DNA of 64,000 bases, taken from contig NZ_FQVU01000001.1 in the NCBI RefSeq assembly GCF_900129455.1, positions 1 to 64,000 on the forward strand, given 5' to 3'. Shown here piece after piece: positions 2,200 to 54,314 of this stretch. Within the stretch, counting starts at the first letter, position 1. Each line of letters opens with the position of its first letter. The translations under genes and the position numbers were made by a program. The notes under the pieces are model-generated. The model was not told the origin of the DNA. It did no database searches and worked only from the letters and a program-made list of their open reading frames with translations. The DNA is from Jatrophihabitans endophyticus. Lineage in GTDB: Bacteria; Actinomycetota; Actinomycetes; Mycobacteriales; Jatrophihabitantaceae.

Positions 2200-3839
2200 C
2201 GGGCACCCCGGGGCAGGGGGAGACGGGCCACGAGCCGCGCGCCGCCGAGGTCGGCCCGCGTCACCGTCACCTCGCCGCCGTGCCGCCGCACCACCTGGTG
2301 CACGAGGGCCAGTCCGAGTCCGCGCCCCGCCTCGCTCGTCGCCAGCTTGGTCGTCCACCCCCGGACGAACGCGCGGTCGACGGCCTCGGGCGGCAACCCC
2401 GGCCCGTCGTCGCACACCTCGACGACCAGCTCGTCGCCGGTCCCGACGAGGCGCAGGACGACGTGGCCGGGTCCGGGCGTCTCCGCGCTCGCGTCGATCG
2501 CGTTGTCGAGCAGGTTGCCGATGACCGTGGTGAGATCGCTGCTGCTGAAGGCGTCCAACGGCGCCGCGACGGTCCGCTCGGCGACCTCCGAGTCCACCTC
2601 CACGTCCACCTCCACGTCCACCTCCACGTCGACGCCGCGCTCGGCCGCCTGCGCGACCTTGCCCAGCAGCATCGCCGCGACCACCGGCTCGGCCACCGCC
2701 GCGACGGTCCGGTCGGTGAGCCGCTGCGACAGCGCGAGCTGCTCGGTGCCGAAGCGGACGGCGTCCGCGGTGCGCCCGGTCTCCATCAGCACGATCATCG
2801 TGTGCAGGCGGTTCGCCGACTCGTGCGCCTGCGAGCGCAACGACTCGGCCAGCGACCGGCTGGCGTCGAGCTCGCCGGTCAACGCCTCGAGCTCGGTGCG
2901 GTCGCGCAGCGTGGTCACGGTCCCGAAGGCCTGCCCGTGCCACACCGCCGGCGCCCGGTCGACGACGAGGACGCGCTCGCCGGTGAGGTGCAGCTCGCCA
3001 CGGACCGCGCGCTCGTCGCCCAGCAGCTCGCGCAGGGGACCGCCGACGGGGAGGTCGGCCAGCGGCCGCCCCGCGTGCGCGGCCGGATCGGGCAGCCCGA
3101 GCAGCCGGCCGGCCTCGGCGTTCACGAGCGTGACCCGGGCGACGCCGTGACGGCGGTCGGTGACGACCAGACCCTCGCGGACGGACTCGAGCACGGCGGT
3201 GTGCGTGGCGAGCATCCCCGTCATGGTGGCGGCGTCCACCCCGCCGGTCTGCCGGCGCAGTCGCCGTCCCACCAGCGCGGCGCCGGCGAGCGCGACCGCG
3301 AGCAGGGCGACGAGCCCCGCGACGAGCGCGGGGACCTGCCGAGCGAGCCGGTCGCGGATGGCCTCGGTGGTGATGCCGACGGCGACGAGCGCGACGACCC
3401 GCCCTCCCGCCCGCACCGGCACCACGGCCCGCACGGACGGACCCAGGCTGCCGGTGTAGGTCTCGGTGACCGCGTGACCGGCGAGCGCCGGTCCGATCGT
3501 GCCGACGAAGGGCTTGCCGACCAGGGCGGGATCCGGGTGGGTGAAACGGGTGCGGTCCGGGGCCATCACGACGACGAAGTCGGCCCCGGTGCCGCGCCGG
3601 ACGCGTTCGACGTACCCGCGCAGCGCCGCGGGCGGATCGGGCGCGCGCACGCCGGCGACCACGTAGGGGTTCGCCGCGACCGACCGGGCGACGCCGAGCA
3701 CGCGGGTCCGGGCGTCGTCCTCGTCACGACGGCTGCCGACCAGGACCGCGGCGGCCGCGACGACGGCCACGACGACGACGAGCAGCACCGCCTGCAGCGC
3801 CAGGAGCTGGCGCGCCAGGCTCCAGCGCCGGATCCGCAC
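2196..3839 (-). CDS. CitA/DcuS-type sensor histidine kinase
   Basis: This 547-residue membrane kinase probably senses an extracellular di- or tricarboxylate. An N-terminal membrane segment (about 12-34) is followed by an extracytoplasmic sCache/PAS-like sensor (about 40-165) containing the family's THP motif (FTHPDP), a second membrane segment (about 170-195) and a cytoplasmic PAS domain (about 215-325). Next come an SpoOB-type dimerisation helix with the phosphorylated His near 339 (QAHESANRLH) and an HATPase_c domain (N box GNLLDNAIDA, G1 DDGPG, G2 GRGLGLAL). Residues 404-416 carry a VEVD repeat between the two kinase subdomains. It is paired with the overlapping response regulator and is divergent from dctA. 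Confidence 0.92.
   Translation of the reverse strand: MRIRRWSLARQLLALQAVLLVVVVAVVAAAAVLVGSRRDEDDARTRVLGVARSVAANPYVVAGVRAPDPPAALRGYVERVRRGTGADFVVVMAPDRTRFTHPDPALVGKPFVGTIGPALAGHAVTETYTGSLGPSVRAVVPVRAGGRVVALVAVGITTEAIRDRLARQVPALVAGLVALLAVALAGAALVGRRLRRQTGGVDAATMTGMLATHTAVLESVREGLVVTDRRHGVARVTLVNAEAGRLLGLPDPAAHAGRPLADLPVGGPLRELLGDERAVRGELHLTGERVLVVDRAPAVWHGQAFGTVTTLRDRTELEALTGELDASRSLAESLRSQAHESANRLHTMIVLMETGRTADAVRFGTEQLALSQRLTDRTVAAVAEPVVAAMLLGKVAQAAERGVDVEVDVEVDVEVDSEVAERTVAAPLDAFSSSDLTTVIGNLLDNAIDASAETPGPGHVVLRLVGTGDELVVEVCDDGPGLPPEAVDRAFVRGWTTKLATSEAGRGLGLALVHQVVRRHGGEVTVTRADLGGARLVARLPLPRGAR
2592..2627 (-). repeat. 12-bp coding minisatellite in the sensor kinase
   Basis: Three perfect tandem copies of a 12-bp unit (GTCCACCTCCAC on the + strand) encode alternating Asp-Val-Glu-Val in the sensor kinase, between the dimerisation helix and the ATPase domain. 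Flanking bases hold degraded copies. The unit keeps the frame, so copy-number change would lengthen or shorten an acidic strand without disrupting the protein. Confidence 0.85.
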
Positions 3840-13226: not shown

Positions 13227-14293
13227 GGTTCCCCGATCCGGCCGGTGACCTCGGCGAGGGCGATCCCGGGCGCGTGCGCGGCGATGGTCACGACGTCGCC
13301 GTCCTCGAGCCAGGTCCGCGGGCCCCCGGCGTCGATCGCGACGGTGCCGTCGCAGGTGAGCTCCAGCAGGCAACCCAGTTCGTCGTCCCCGGGCCCGCTG
13401 ACCGTCCCCGAGCCGTACAGGTCCCCGGGGTTGGCACGGGCGCCGTTGGAGGTGAGGTGCGCCAGCATCTGGGCGTAGGTCCAGTACATCGCCCCGAACG
13501 GGGGCCGGCTCACCACCGTGTCGTTGACCCGGACCTCGAGGCCGAGGTCCAGCCCGTGCCGGCCGTGGTCGCACAGGGGCGCGACCGGCTCGGGGTCCTG
13601 CGGCGGCGACGGCAGCCGCGGCAGCTCGGTCAGCGGCGTGACCCAGGCCGCGACGGAGGTGGCGAAGGACTTGCCGAGGAACGGCCCCAGTGGCCGGGTC
13701 TCGAAGCGCTGGATGTCGCGGGCCGACCAGTCGTTGAGCAGGCACACGCCGAAGACGTGCGCGTCGGCGTCGGCGACGGCGATCCGGGAACCGCCCCGGC
13801 CGACGACGAACCCCAGCTCGGCCTCGAAGTCCAACCGGCGCGTGGGTCCGAAGCTGCCCGGGCCGAGGACGCCCTGCGGTCGCGGGACCGGCGTGCCGGA
13901 CACGACGACCGACCGGGACCGGCCGTGGTAGCCGATCGGCAGGTGCTTCCAGCTGGCCGGCAGCGGGTCGGCGTCCGGGCGGAACAGCCGGCCCACGTTG
14001 CTCGCGTGGTGCTCGGAGGCGTAGAAGTCGACGTAGTCGGCCACCGTGAACGGCAGCTGCGGGCGCACGTCGGCCAGCGCGTGCGTCGCCTCGGCGTCGC
14101 GGACGGCATCGGCGACGCGCTCCCACGCCGCAGGCCCGGCGCCCAGTAGGAAGTCCAGCGTGCCGTAGGCGAACAGCTCCGGATCGACGCGGGAGAGGTC
14201 CACGACCTCGTCGTCGCGGCGGTAGGCGGCGAACAGCCGGCCCTCCCGGTCATGGACCGAGCCGTACCCGACGACGGTCACCCGCGGGTCCAC
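13223..14293 (-). CDS. fahA: Fumarylacetoacetate hydrolase family protein
   Basis: This 356-residue enzyme belongs to the FAH fold and most likely cleaves fumarylacetoacetate to fumarate and acetoacetate, the last step of tyrosine/homogentisate breakdown. Family signatures include the catalytic-domain start YVDFYASEHHASNVGRLF (about 85-102), PIGYHGRSRSV, LDFEAELGFVVG (metal-ligand glutamates), NDWSARDIQRFE and TSNGARANPGDLYGSGT. It is shorter than the 420-residue mammalian enzyme. The start overlaps the last 16 bases of hmgA, and the stop overlaps the sigK start, so hmgA-fahA-sigK-rskA read as one operon. No maleylacetoacetate isomerase gene is seen nearby. Confidence 0.92.
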   Translation of the reverse strand: MDPRVTVVGYGSVHDREGRLFAAYRRDDEVVDLSRVDPELFAYGTLDFLLGAGPAAWERVADAVRDAEATHALADVRPQLPFTVADYVDFYASEHHASNVGRLFRPDADPLPASWKHLPIGYHGRSRSVVVSGTPVPRPQGVLGPGSFGPTRRLDFEAELGFVVGRGGSRIAVADADAHVFGVCLLNDWSARDIQRFETRPLGPFLGKSFATSVAAWVTPLTELPRLPSPPQDPEPVAPLCDHGRHGLDLGLEVRVNDTVVSRPPFGAMYWTYAQMLAHLTSNGARANPGDLYGSGTVSGPGDDELGCLLELTCDGTVAIDAGGPRTWLEDGDVVTIAAHAPGIALAEVTGRIGEP

Positions 14294-15462
14294 GACCAGG
14301 CGTACTGCCCGTCGTCGGCGGCCCGGCCGCCCTCGCCGAGACGCAGCGGCCGGAAGGTGTCGACCATCACCGCGAGCTCGTCGACCTCCTGCACACCGAC
14401 GGAGCGCTCGTAGGCACCGGGCTGCGGGCCGTGCGAGTGACCGCCGGGGTGCAGGCTCACCGAGCCCTGCCCGATGCCCGACCCGCGACGCGCCTCGTAG
14501 TCGCCGCCGCAGTAGAACATGACCTCGTCGCTGTCGACGTTCGAATGGTAGTAGGGCACCGGGATGGCGAGCGGATGGTAGTCGACCTTGCGGGGCACGA
14601 AGTTGCAGACGACGAAGTTGTGGCCCTCGAACACCTGGTGCACCGGCGGCGGCTGGTGCACCTTCCCGGTGATCGGCATGAAGTCCTCGACGTTGAACGT
14701 GTACGGGTAGAGGCAGCCGTCCCAGCCCACGACATCGAACGGGTGGTGGGGCAGTACGTGCACCGAGCCCGCGATGCCGGTCGGCCCGGCGGCGCGGTGC
14801 TTGACGTACACCTCGGTGTCGCCGGCCGTCTCGACCGGCGGGTCACCCGGGCCGTGCAGGTCCCGCTCGCAGTACGGCGCGTGCTCGAGCAGCTGACCGT
14901 GCCGGGACAGGTAGCGGTGCGCCGGCCCCACGTGCGAGTTGGCCTCGATGCAGTACGCCCGGACCGTCCCCGAGGGCAGCCAGCGATGCGTCGTCGCGCG
15001 GGGGACGACCACGTAGTCGCCGCGCGTGAACGCGAGCGGGCCGAACACCGTCTCGCAGACGCCCGCGCCGTCCTCGATGTACACGCACTCGTCGCCGAGC
15101 GCGTTGCGATAGAACGGCGACGGCGCGGACCCGACCACGTAGCCGATGCGCACGTCCTCGTTGCCGAGCACCAGCCGCCGGCCGCGCACGAGGTCGGTGC
15201 CGGCGGCGTCGTCGGCGAAGAGCTCGTGCAGGCGCAGGTGGCGCGGCAGCAGCGGTTCGTTCGGCGCGGTGGCGAGGTCGGGGAGGTCCCAGCTGCGTGC
15301 GTCGCGCAGCGCGGACGGGATCTCGCGGTGGTAGAGCAACGACGAGTCCGAGGAGAAGCCCTCCTCGCCCATCAACTCCTCGTAGTACAGCCGCCCGTCC
15401 GCGTCACGGTGCTGCGTGTGTCGTTTGGGCGGGATGCTCCCGCGCTGCTGGTAGTAGGGCAT
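14278..15462 (-). CDS. hmgA: Homogentisate 1,2-dioxygenase
   Basis: This 394-residue cupin iron enzyme opens the ring of homogentisate to maleylacetoacetate. The N terminus (MPYYQQRGSIPPKRH) and the C-terminal metal/active-site region (PYYHSNVDSDEVMFYCGGDY, then HPGGHSHGPQPGAYE) match bacterial homogentisate dioxygenases. GAGGTG precedes the ATG at 15462. It is the first gene of the leftward operon with fahA, sigK and rskA. The 200-bp space between it and citrate synthase holds an array of short inverted repeats (15508-15638) where its promoter should be. The 4-hydroxyphenylpyruvate dioxygenase of the pathway is not in the window. Confidence 0.94.
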   Translation of the reverse strand: MPYYQQRGSIPPKRHTQHRDADGRLYYEELMGEEGFSSDSSLLYHREIPSALRDARSWDLPDLATAPNEPLLPRHLRLHELFADDAAGTDLVRGRRLVLGNEDVRIGYVVGSAPSPFYRNALGDECVYIEDGAGVCETVFGPLAFTRGDYVVVPRATTHRWLPSGTVRAYCIEANSHVGPAHRYLSRHGQLLEHAPYCERDLHGPGDPPVETAGDTEVYVKHRAAGPTGIAGSVHVLPHHPFDVVGWDGCLYPYTFNVEDFMPITGKVHQPPPVHQVFEGHNFVVCNFVPRKVDYHPLAIPVPYYHSNVDSDEVMFYCGGDYEARRGSGIGQGSVSLHPGGHSHGPQPGAYERSVGVQEVDELAVMVDTFRPLRLGEGGRAADDGQYAWSWTRG

Positions 15463-15507
15463 GGCACCTCATCGACGTCGTTGTCGGTCGTGGACCACCC
15501 TGTCACG

Positions 15508-15638
15508 AATGGCGACTTTCGAGGTTGACTGGCGACCTCCGCGTCCACTGGCGACCTGTAGCTCGCCAGTCGGCTGACAGGTCGCCAGTCGACGGGGCAG
15601 GTCGCCAGTCGACGGGGCAGGTCGCCAGTCGACGGGGC
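15508..15638. repeat. TGGCGACYT repeat array, copy A
   Basis: This intergenic array between citrate synthase and hmgA is built from an 11-bp unit, ACTGGCGACCT. Forward copies start at 15528 and 15547, with a degenerate one near 15509. Reverse-complement copies start at 15560 (one mismatch), 15579, 15599 and 15619. The last three fall in tandem 20-bp repeats (15581-15600, 15601-15620, partial 15621-15638). Units are spaced 19-20 bp, about two helical turns, and the orientation flips around 15558. The array covers the 3' side of gltA and lies 46-176 bp upstream of the hmgA ATG. A second array of the same family is at 32648-32758. It could be a terminator, a protein-binding array or a REP-like element. 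Confidence 0.9.
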
Positions 15639-15662: not shown

Positions 15663-16961
<1,299 letters not shown>

Positions 16962-28155: not shown

Positions 28156-28243
28156 TGGTGTCCGAGGGGGGACTTGAACCCCCACGCCCGATAAAGGGCA
28201 CTAGCACCTCAAGCTAGCGCGTCTGCCATTCCGCCACCCGGAC
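28156..28243 (-). tRNA. tRNA-Leu (anticodon GAG)
   Basis: The minus strand folds as a class II tRNA. The acceptor GTCCGGG (28243-28237) pairs with CTCGGAC (28166-28160) with one G-U pair. The discriminator A at 28159 is followed by an encoded CCA (28158-28156). The anticodon arm is CTAGC-TTGAGGT-GCTAG with anticodon GAG, reading CUC and CUU leucine codons. A long variable arm (GCCC/GGGC) and the T arm with GTTCAAG are present. It stands alone between protein genes. Confidence 0.97.
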
Positions 28244-31752: not shown

Positions 31753-32352
31753 ATGCGCTCGAACCCCGCCTCGCTGCCCCCGCTGCCCGTCCAGGCCGAC
31801 CGCCTCGCCGGGCTCGGCCTGCCCGTGCCGGCCACCGTCCCCGACGGCACCGGTCTGCTCGTGCCCGACGCCCCGCCGTCCACGCTCACGCCGCTGCTGC
31901 GGCGGGCCGGCAAGCCCGGTTTCGTGGTCGTCGACATGACCGACGTCGACGACTTCGCTCCGGTCGACGACCTGGACGTCCCCGCGCCGCCCTACCTCGT
32001 CCAGGACGTCACCCGCGGCGACGAGCTGCGCAACCAGAGCCCGGCCGAGGCGCTGCCGGCGCTGCGCGCTGCCGGCCGCACCCCGCTGACCCTGCGCGAG
32101 GGTCTCGCGTGACTGCTGCAGCAGCCCGACGTGCTGGCCCGGGACCACTGCTTCATGACCGTCGGCTCGCGCCGGCGCAAGGCCGACGGCAGGCTCGACG
32201 CCCGCACCCCCGCGATCTGGATCAGCAACGGCACGGGTCGCGACGGCCGGGCCGCGAAGGACGCGCCCAAGGTCGGGTGGTGCTGGGCCGGCAACCGGCA
32301 CACCTGGCTCGGCTTCGCCTCGGCGGCGGGCCGGGTCGCCCTCGCGGGTTAG
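31753..32352 (+). pseudogene. DUF5701 family gene interrupted by an in-frame TGA
   Basis: Read from the ATG at 31753, the frame gives 119 residues and stops at TGA 32110-32112. The same frame continues without a shift for 79 more residues to a TAG at 32350-32352. Both halves look like parts of one DUF5701 protein: the first contains KPGFVVVDMTDVDDF and PYLVQDVTRGDEL, the second HCFMTVGSRRRKADG, ARTPAIWISNGTGRDG and KVGWCWAGNRHTWLGF. GC3 stays high on both sides. The TGA would need one base change from TGG (Trp). It may be a true nonsense mutation, a sequencing error or a read-through site. The 3' end overlaps the convergent DUF5703 gene by four bases. The function of the family is unknown. 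Confidence 0.85.
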
Positions 32353-32564
32353 GCCGACAGGCCGGGCAGCGGGACCGAGGTCTTGGTGCGCTTGCGGCGC
32401 AGCGTGACGCGGCGGGTGCCGTCCATGTACTTGACGACGCGGGCGAGCTCCCAGCCGCCGAACTCCGCCTGCAGCGACAGCTGCGCCGCGGCGTTGAGCC
32501 GGGTGACGTCGGCCGGGATGTGCAGCGGCGCGTACTCCCAGTCCGGTTCGCTCGAGTCGGTCAT
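32349..32564 (-). CDS. DUF5703 family small protein
   Basis: This 71-residue protein of unknown function starts MTDSSEPDWEYAPLHIPADV and contains the conserved GGWELARVVKYMDGTRRVTLRRKR stretch in pieces (WELARV, then RRVTLRRKR), typical of a small actinobacterial family. It is basic at the C terminus and could bind nucleic acid or protein; nothing more can be said. The ATG is at 32564, and the TAA stop overlaps the DUF5701 gene end on the other strand. The upstream 194 bp hold the second TGGCGACYT repeat array. Confidence 0.82.
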   Translation of the reverse strand: MTDSSEPDWEYAPLHIPADVTRLNAAAQLSLQAEFGGWELARVVKYMDGTRRVTLRRKRTKTSVPLPGLSA

Positions 32565-32647
32565 CGCCGACCATTGTGCGCCATCGACGGCCGCGGTCGG
32601 CATGGCGTCCGACACCCGACCGGACGCGGGCGCCCCCACCCGTGTCG

Positions 32648-32758
32648 ACTGGCGACTTCCCGTGTCGACTGGCGACTTGCAGGCCGACTGGCGACCTGTA
32701 GGTCGCCAGTCGGCCGGGAAGTCGCCAGTCGGCTTAGCCAGTCGCCAGTCGCCAGTCG
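32648..32758. repeat. TGGCGACYT repeat array, copy B
   Basis: The same 11-bp unit as at 15.5 kb appears here. Forward units ACTGGCGACTT or ACTGGCGACCT start at 32648, 32668 and 32687. Reverse units start at 32700, 32719 and 32739, with a truncated one to 32758. Spacing is 19-20 bp except at the centre. There GGCCGACTGGCGACCT (32682-32697) and its exact complement (32700-32715) form a 16-bp palindrome with a two-base spacer. As in copy A, the array directly follows the 3' end of a leftward gene and precedes the next leftward gene by about 85 bp. Confidence 0.92.
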
Positions 32759-33367
32759 TCAGCGGCCGAAGGTCATCACGAAGTCGCGGAGCGTGAGCGA
32801 CAGCCACGGACGGTGACCGGCAAGGAAGGCGAGCGGGCCGGCGGGCGCGGCGGCGAGGCGGGTCGTCGTCACGGTGAGCCCGCCGCGGGCGCGGACCGGG
32901 CTCGTCGTCGGCGCGTCGTCGAGCTGTTGCACGATCGAGAACCGGACCGGCCACCGGCCCGGCAGCCGCAGCCGGTCGCGCACCGTGCCGGCGGTGATCC
33001 GGCCGTCGTCGTCGCGGGCGGCCCGCGCGTCCCCGGTGAAGTCGAAGGACGCGAGCTGCTTCGGGATGCCCCACAGTGCGCGGCCGCCCGCCAGCGAGGC
33101 CTCGCTGTCGACCCAGATGCGCACGATCGTCGGCCGCACCCGCGCGCCGCGCCGGGCCAGCACCACCGCCATGACCTCGCGGTAGCTGAGCACGCCGGGC
33201 GGCTCGTAGCGCACCCACGCCGTCGCGACGACGGCCCACCGGGCGAGCCGCACCGCCCGCCAGCCGTCGGGCAGGTCGTCGGGCAGGTCCGCGGCGGGGA
33301 CGAGGAACAGCGAGAGATCGAGTCGGCCGCGCAGGTCCCACGGCTCGGACGGGTAGGGCGTGCTCAC
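32759..33367 (-). CDS. Acetoacetate decarboxylase-fold protein
   Basis: This 202-residue protein of the acetoacetate-decarboxylase superfamily shows a strand-rich core with RPTIVRIWVDSEASLAGGRALWGIPKQLASFDF split over two elements; the IPK tripeptide places a Lys where the family's Schiff-base Lys is expected. Actinobacterial members of this group are mostly uncharacterised, and some act on other keto or lactone substrates. The GTG start at 33367 overlaps the stop of the RecD-like helicase by four bases, so it is the last gene of the AKR-helicase-ADC operon before the repeat array. Confidence 0.78.
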   Translation of the reverse strand: MSTPYPSEPWDLRGRLDLSLFLVPAADLPDDLPDGWRAVRLARWAVVATAWVRYEPPGVLSYREVMAVVLARRGARVRPTIVRIWVDSEASLAGGRALWGIPKQLASFDFTGDARAARDDDGRITAGTVRDRLRLPGRWPVRFSIVQQLDDAPTTSPVRARGGLTVTTTRLAAAPAGPLAFLAGHRPWLSLTLRDFVMTFGR

Positions 33368-49062: not shown

Positions 49063-49098
49063 GGCCCGGCCACGATCGCGGACGATCGTGGCCGGGCC
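49063..49098. repeat. Perfect 16-bp hairpin with 4-nt loop
   Basis: GGCCCGGCCACGATCG (49063-49078) is exactly complementary to 49083-49098 around a CGGA loop. It is the most stable simple hairpin in the window and lies about 150 bp upstream of the EAL gene start, between two divergent genes, so it terminates neither of them. No T-run follows on either strand. It could end an unannotated RNA, insulate the promoters, or be bound by a protein. Confidence 0.85.

Positions 49099-52197: not shown

Positions 52198-54314
<2,117 letters not shown>

Follow-up and report, generated by a model that had tools for sequence, protein, structure and literature searches.

Identification of the palindromic array B

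The window, a stretch of 64,000 nucleotides from the genome of Jatrophihabitans endophyticus, contains between two leftward genes an array of short units that are first repeated in one orientation and then in the other. The locus raises the question of what kind of element this array is, and by what its units are maintained. The parts of this array (array B), of a further copy of the element (array A) and their neighbouring genes are as follows (F, forward unit; R, inverted unit).

32646..32758, no strand: array B in full, a palindromic element made up of F F F, the centre, R R R and one overlapping R
32646..32656, plus strand: unit F1, exact CGACTGGCGAC
32666..32676, plus strand: unit F2, exact CGACTGGCGAC
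32685..32695, plus strand: unit F3, exact CGACTGGCGAC
32696..32701, no strand: centre CTGTAG of array B
32702..32712, minus strand: unit R1, exact inverted
32721..32731, minus strand: unit R2, exact inverted
32741..32751, minus strand: unit R3, exact inverted
32748..32758, minus strand: extra R unit, exact inverted, 4-bp overlap with R3 (7-bp step, local duplication)
32759..33367, minus strand: acetoacetate-decarboxylase-like (ADC-like) gene, PF06314, whose stop codon (32759-32761) abuts array B
32349..32564, minus strand: DUF5703 gene, PF18963, downstream of array B, possibly with a more upstream start, to 32615
15506..15631, no strand: array A (FFF CTGTAG RRRR)
15663..16961, minus strand: citrate synthase gene, PF00285, upstream of array A
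14278..15462, minus strand: homogentisate 1,2-dioxygenase-like gene, downstream of array A

The 11-bp unit of array B is CGACTGGCGAC, and the units follow each other at start-to-start steps of 20/19/17/19/20. The two arms of 55 nt each are 84% complementary, and the extra R unit adjoins the stop codon of the ADC-like gene. A sequence-only reading had placed an array here and had stated that its unit, spacing and forward-then-reverse order recur 17 kb away; both statements were borne out, as the units are exact and array A shares the layout of array B. The central palindrome, which had been given as 16 bp, is longer and comprises 28 bp (CGACTGGCGAC-CTGTAG-GTCGCCAGTCG), in which one central pair is mismatched. 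The 11-bp units in both orientations and the spacers of 8-9 bp do not fit a CRISPR array with its direct repeats of approximately 25-40 bp and unique spacers. Elsewhere in the window, two further strong palindromes (49063-49098 and 52813-52857) are unrelated in sequence to the arrays, and a tRNA gene is located on the minus strand at 28159-28243.

A dispersed family with conserved units

In the 4.48-Mb genome of J. endophyticus (G000), 120 exact occurrences of the 11-mer CGACTGGCGAC were counted, compared to five for the reversed control pattern. At least 30 arrays were recovered, nearly all of them stepped 20/19/17/19/20; this number is a lower bound, and one or two more may exist. That the arrays are a chance or low-complexity artefact is refuted by this excess of units and by the fixed layout at 30 places, and can be dismissed with near certainty. 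Some arrays are devoid of one outer unit, others possess extra outer units originating from local tandem duplication. Five additional isolated exact units were detected, which is about the number predicted by the control. Over the 30 copies, the centre has the consensus CTRYAG.

Aligned without gaps, the 30 copies gave a relative entropy of 1.65-1.74 bits per position for the inner four units, 0.63-0.75 for the spacers and 0.17-0.18 for the flanks, the outer units being the least conserved units of the array. Hence the proposal that the units are constrained and the spacers are not was upheld. The same applies to the assumption that no block has recently been duplicated: the likeness of spacers between copies is no greater than in column-shuffled data (p = 0.66), indicating that the arrays are not recent block duplications and that the spacers retain no trace of copy descent. 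Since the spacers are saturated, no copy in this genome appears recent. The units are thus maintained by something that reads the unit sequence, and a DNA-binding protein is the preferred candidate.

All copies are intergenic or overlap a gene end, in agreement with the condition of the sequence-only reading that copies should not be scattered inside genes. Two genes terminate within arrays, a urocanase gene with its TGA in a spacer (L032:2088-2193) and the gene of L054 with the central TAG (L054:2437-2581). Among the 30 junctions, 21 are tandem, four convergent and five divergent, which matches the background (112/32/30). Among the 21 tandem copies, 16 are closer to the upstream stop codon than to the following start codon (medians 19 and 39 bp, respectively), a mild lean of the arrays towards the upstream stop. 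Both arrays of the window had been noted to come directly after the 3' end of a gene read leftward. This is true for the two, but it does not hold as a general rule, given the background-like junction types. A regulon, whose existence had been proposed for checking, is not evident because the neighbours of the arrays are mixed housekeeping genes. Both a regulon and a 3'-end rule were thus rejected. One array (L036:2462-2899) lies between divergent genes for an AraC-type regulator and an amtB-like ammonium transporter.

Gain of copies in the J. endophyticus lineage

The unit CGACTGGCGAC did not occur above background in two congeners, 21 other members of the family and 17 other genomes of the order. 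Likewise, the exact 26-bp centre had no match in 84,980 genomes of other species or in IMG/VR, two collections to which the J. endophyticus genome itself does not belong. At the orthologous junctions of congeners no array of this kind was seen. The urocanase and M20 peptidase genes overlap in congener G001, and the dnaE/spl-like junction measures 11 bp in congener G002. In the congeners, the aligned parts of the methylmalonyl-CoA mutase/meaB-like pair are separated by 4-32 bp, two adjacent genes for dehydrogenase E1 subunits overlap or are 17 bp apart, and the carB/pyrK-like junction comprises 32 bp; none of these five sites harbors an array. The same five junctions in J. endophyticus each contain an array of 86-150 bp. 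The lack of the element elsewhere, together with empty orthologous sites inside tight operons, shows that copies were gained in the J. endophyticus lineage. For the ADC-like neighbour of array B, no match was found in the two congeners searched.

These insertions also bear on the possibility that the arrays act as strong hairpin terminators of transcription or stabilise the 3' ends of mRNAs. Long inverted repeats near stop codons would suit such a role, and the pair beside the centre covaries, being Watson-Crick in 23 of 30 copies versus 13.5 expected. On the other hand, the spacer bases pair no better within copies than between copies (z 1.5 and -0.9), Rfam gave no match, and five of the 30 copies lie between divergent genes. 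Moreover, a strong terminator would do harm inside tight operons, and arrays split such operons (carB-pyrK-like, methylmalonyl-CoA mutase-meaB-like, the E1 subunits, urocanase-M20 peptidase). A terminator or stabiliser function is therefore considered quite improbable, and RNA structure as the function of the arrays was rejected on account of the missing spacer covariation and Rfam match.

A predicted nuclease gene bracketed by two arrays

At one place in the J. endophyticus genome, two arrays enclose a single gene.

G000 C2:668353-669204: predicted nuclease gene (putative partner protein), single gene between two arrays
G000 C2:668163-668248 and 669216-669466: the bracketing arrays

The called neighbours of this gene encode an adenylate kinase and an AMP-binding enzyme. 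In G002 the interval between these two genes amounts to only approximately 72 bp and contains no cassette. The nuclease has no match in Pfam or NCBIfam and the family was therefore placed by structure, using a model predicted with AlphaFold2 (pLDDT 81.7). The C-terminal part of this model matches the homing endonuclease I-Bth0305I (3r3p; Z 12.0, rmsd 2.2 over 95 residues), the NGO0050 protein (Z 11.6) and Vsr (1cw0; Z 10.2). Its N-terminal half matches the AbiEi antitoxin (6y8q; Z 10.6 over residues 6-163) and Rv2827c (Z 6.4). According to the model, the protein is predicted to be composed of an AbiEi-like N-terminal domain and a C-terminal domain of the Vsr/EDxHD (homing-endonuclease-like) type. 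The residues E172, D205, H222 and D231 are invariant across eight family members and probably represent the EDxHD motif. DUF559 (PF04480) was matched by the family member of G012 (score 21.8, curated cut-off 20.6), and there was no match for the members of G000 and G006.

Array B is probably a non-autonomous copy, standing alone, of a palindromic repeat specific to this lineage, with the partner nuclease encoded elsewhere in the genome.

Association of palindromes and nuclease genes in other genomes

The junction occupied by array A in J. endophyticus is also of interest in congener G002, where a different palindrome, with CGTTGAGTGACG-like outer and GATCAGAGACGG-like inner units, separates the homogentisate 1,2-dioxygenase-like and citrate synthase genes. 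Copies of this palindrome, which has the 20-bp unit step found here, are scattered over the G002 genome and over those of two members of another genus. Two of its copies in G002, identical over 69 nt including the spacers, bracket one gene, and this gene is homologous to the J. endophyticus nuclease gene (35% identity, E 3e-43), while the palindromes look unrelated.

Family members were sought by protein alone in 24 genomes of the family and then in 397 genomes of the order, of which 167 carry the nuclease family. A locus was regarded as bracketed if the palindromes on its two flanks have 10 nt or more in common. This applied to 19 of the 32 nuclease-family members examined, a non-random sample taken from the best matches listed, or for 17 of 30 if the two seed loci are left out. 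By contrast, none of 70 homogentisate-dioxygenase (HGO) genes and one of 400 random windows were bracketed. In the palindromes found by the protein-alone search, the units are stepped by 15-21 bp. Counting against the association, the thresholds applied left 13 of the 32 members without a matched pair, although L275, which belongs to these 13, shows paired units on both sides on inspection.

The bracketing palindrome varies by lineage, and in several species it is the dispersed family of the genome itself. In G006, the dispersed family TTSAGTGGCGGG (39 unit hits, nine for the control) also brackets the nuclease gene. A GAGATCTGCACASTSG palindrome adjoins the listed nuclease match in G146, G343, G283, G236, G315 and G216, with 35, 21, 16, 14, 10 and six unit hits, respectively, and none for the control. 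Two genera share an orthologous site, the neighbour gene being 75% identical; its flanking palindromes match each other within a genome (85-92%) but do not match between the genera (60-71%). Also counting against the association, G009 and G014, two incomplete assemblies, contain a dispersed palindrome but yielded no high-scoring nuclease match. In G006, a TCGTCATGCGATCG palindrome was considered as a large family and rejected, since it has two copies only in this genome.

The G006 family was analysed by 21 copies in 20 regions. They have the layout 19/19/19 and the CTRYAG centre in common with the J. endophyticus arrays, their units are conserved and their spacers lack a descent signal. In 13 of the 21 copies the central half-sites carry different alleles (GG/AC or AC/GG), indicating that a perfect hairpin is not what these copies keep.

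The last observation, which favours double-stranded binding over hairpin pairing, would also suit an explanation without mobility, namely that the arrays are sites of a host DNA-binding protein (a regulator or nucleoid organiser) selected locus by locus, and that the nuclease shares these sites by chance or for its own regulation. Near-invariant units next to saturated spacers and a unit spacing of about two helical turns agree with this, as does the binding of AbiEi-type proteins to inverted repeats in promoters (PMC7319586). Yet the neighbours have no common function, the junction types equal the background and the congeners lack the sites. Furthermore, other genera have the same layout built from other units and linked to the nuclease gene. 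Host-protein sites are for these reasons thought unlikely.

A further feature of the nuclease genes is a DnaA-box-like motif (RTCCACA or TGTGGAY), which was located within 200 bp upstream of 28 of the 32 family genes (L264-L309); the corresponding numbers are 0 of 70 for HGO genes and 12 of 600 for random stretches. The motifs are often paired at a distance of 18-19 bp. A link of the genes to replication is possible.

Relationship to known repeat and nuclease systems

REP elements are the textbook example of dispersed bacterial palindromes, and the Y1 RAYTs are the one family of enzymes connected with them. ERIC, BOX and BIME elements, too, are dispersed imperfect intergenic palindromes and resemble the arrays in this respect; we know of none that brackets a Vsr-like nuclease gene. 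RAYT genes have been described as always flanked by two inverted REPs (PMC2817692), which are likewise found as dispersed intergenic palindromes. The family described here resembles them in that its palindromes are specific to a lineage, intergenic and present in tens of copies, with copies on both sides of a cognate gene and solo copies elsewhere. It would accordingly be conceivable that the arrays are REP/REPIN elements moved by a Y1 (RAYT) transposase, or else MITEs of an ordinary insertion sequence. However, no match to the Y1 transposase domain (PF01797, E ≤ 0.001) was obtained in the J. endophyticus genome, which is 98.5% complete, while the same search was positive in five of 14 control genomes, so that a RAYT was rejected as mobiliser. 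Contrary to a MITE, the arrays are conserved at the centre and not at the termini, and the bracketed gene encodes a Vsr-like nuclease. By eye, no target-site duplication was evident at the arrays. Both origins are hence regarded as highly improbable. The differences from REP/RAYT concern the protein, an unrelated AbiEi-like and Vsr/EDxHD nuclease by prediction, as well as the element, which consists of 11-bp units at steps of about 20 bp around CTRYAG and has no conserved GTAG or CGTC end tag; GTAG is present only in copies centred on CTGTAG. The lack of a Y1 domain and the unrelated protein imply that the system is organised like REP/RAYT without being a member of it.

With the EDxHD homing endonuclease I-Bth0305I and with Vsr, the nuclease shares the predicted fold and the invariant E, D, H and D. 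What separates it from homing endonucleases is that its gene is neither intronic nor inserted into its target, lying instead between two complete palindromes, and that solo palindromes are dispersed in the genome. The N-terminal half, with its predicted AbiEi fold, resembles AbiEi antitoxin and Rv2827c, with the difference that a nuclease domain is fused to it. Among the called neighbours of the J. endophyticus gene there is no AbiEii (DUF1814) toxin gene. AbiEi-type proteins bind inverted repeats in their own promoters, and I-Bth0305I has been described as forming a dimer on a target that measures nearly 60 bp (PMC3943268). As the four-unit elements are approximately 70 bp long, these two properties may be precedents for a dimer on a palindrome of that length.

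Such a nuclease, probably a dimer or higher oligomer, would recognise the inverted units spaced by about 20 bp around the CTRYAG centre and nick or cut the DNA there. Nicking or cutting might cause the palindrome, and at times the entire palindrome-gene-palindrome cassette, to be copied into intergenic gaps. Unit sequence and protein specificity would diverge jointly, leaving each lineage with its own palindrome. Taken as a whole, the palindromes and the bracketed nuclease look like an undescribed system of DNA parasites, and a search of the open-access literature gave no description of DUF559/Vsr-like nucleases with palindromic repeats on their flanks. The far-reaching interpretation, to which we give about an even chance, is an undescribed class of bacterial selfish DNA in which an AbiEi-like/Vsr-like nuclease recognises and spreads the arrays bracketing its own gene, with specificities diverging jointly in each lineage, across much of the sampled order, and with expression or movement perhaps coupled to replication via the DnaA-box-like motifs. 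If Vsr-like nucleases do play the part of RAYTs in actinobacteria, parasites made up of a palindrome and an enzyme arose more than once. Poorly described orphan nuclease genes would gain a function, the palindromes on either side would directly reveal the DNA specificity of these nucleases, and many species-specific intergenic hairpins of high-GC genomes would be accounted for.

Further palindromes

Several palindromes were seen besides those discussed above. Upstream of the pyruvate kinase gene of G002 (L098), a palindrome CCACCRGTGGTCACTTA...TAAGTGACCACCGGTGG is located where J. endophyticus has an array. Two elements of G146, approximately 0.9-1 kb apart, bracket a metallo-hydrolase-like gene and not a nuclease gene (L385, C2:889500-891200), which counts against the association with nucleases. 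More distant relatives of the nuclease (L272, L273 and L277), two of which have AbiEi_4 or DUF559 matches, are bracketed by simple palindromes of other sequence. In G012, identical 64-bp palindromes (L223:1838-1901 and 2997-3060) lie 1.1 kb apart.
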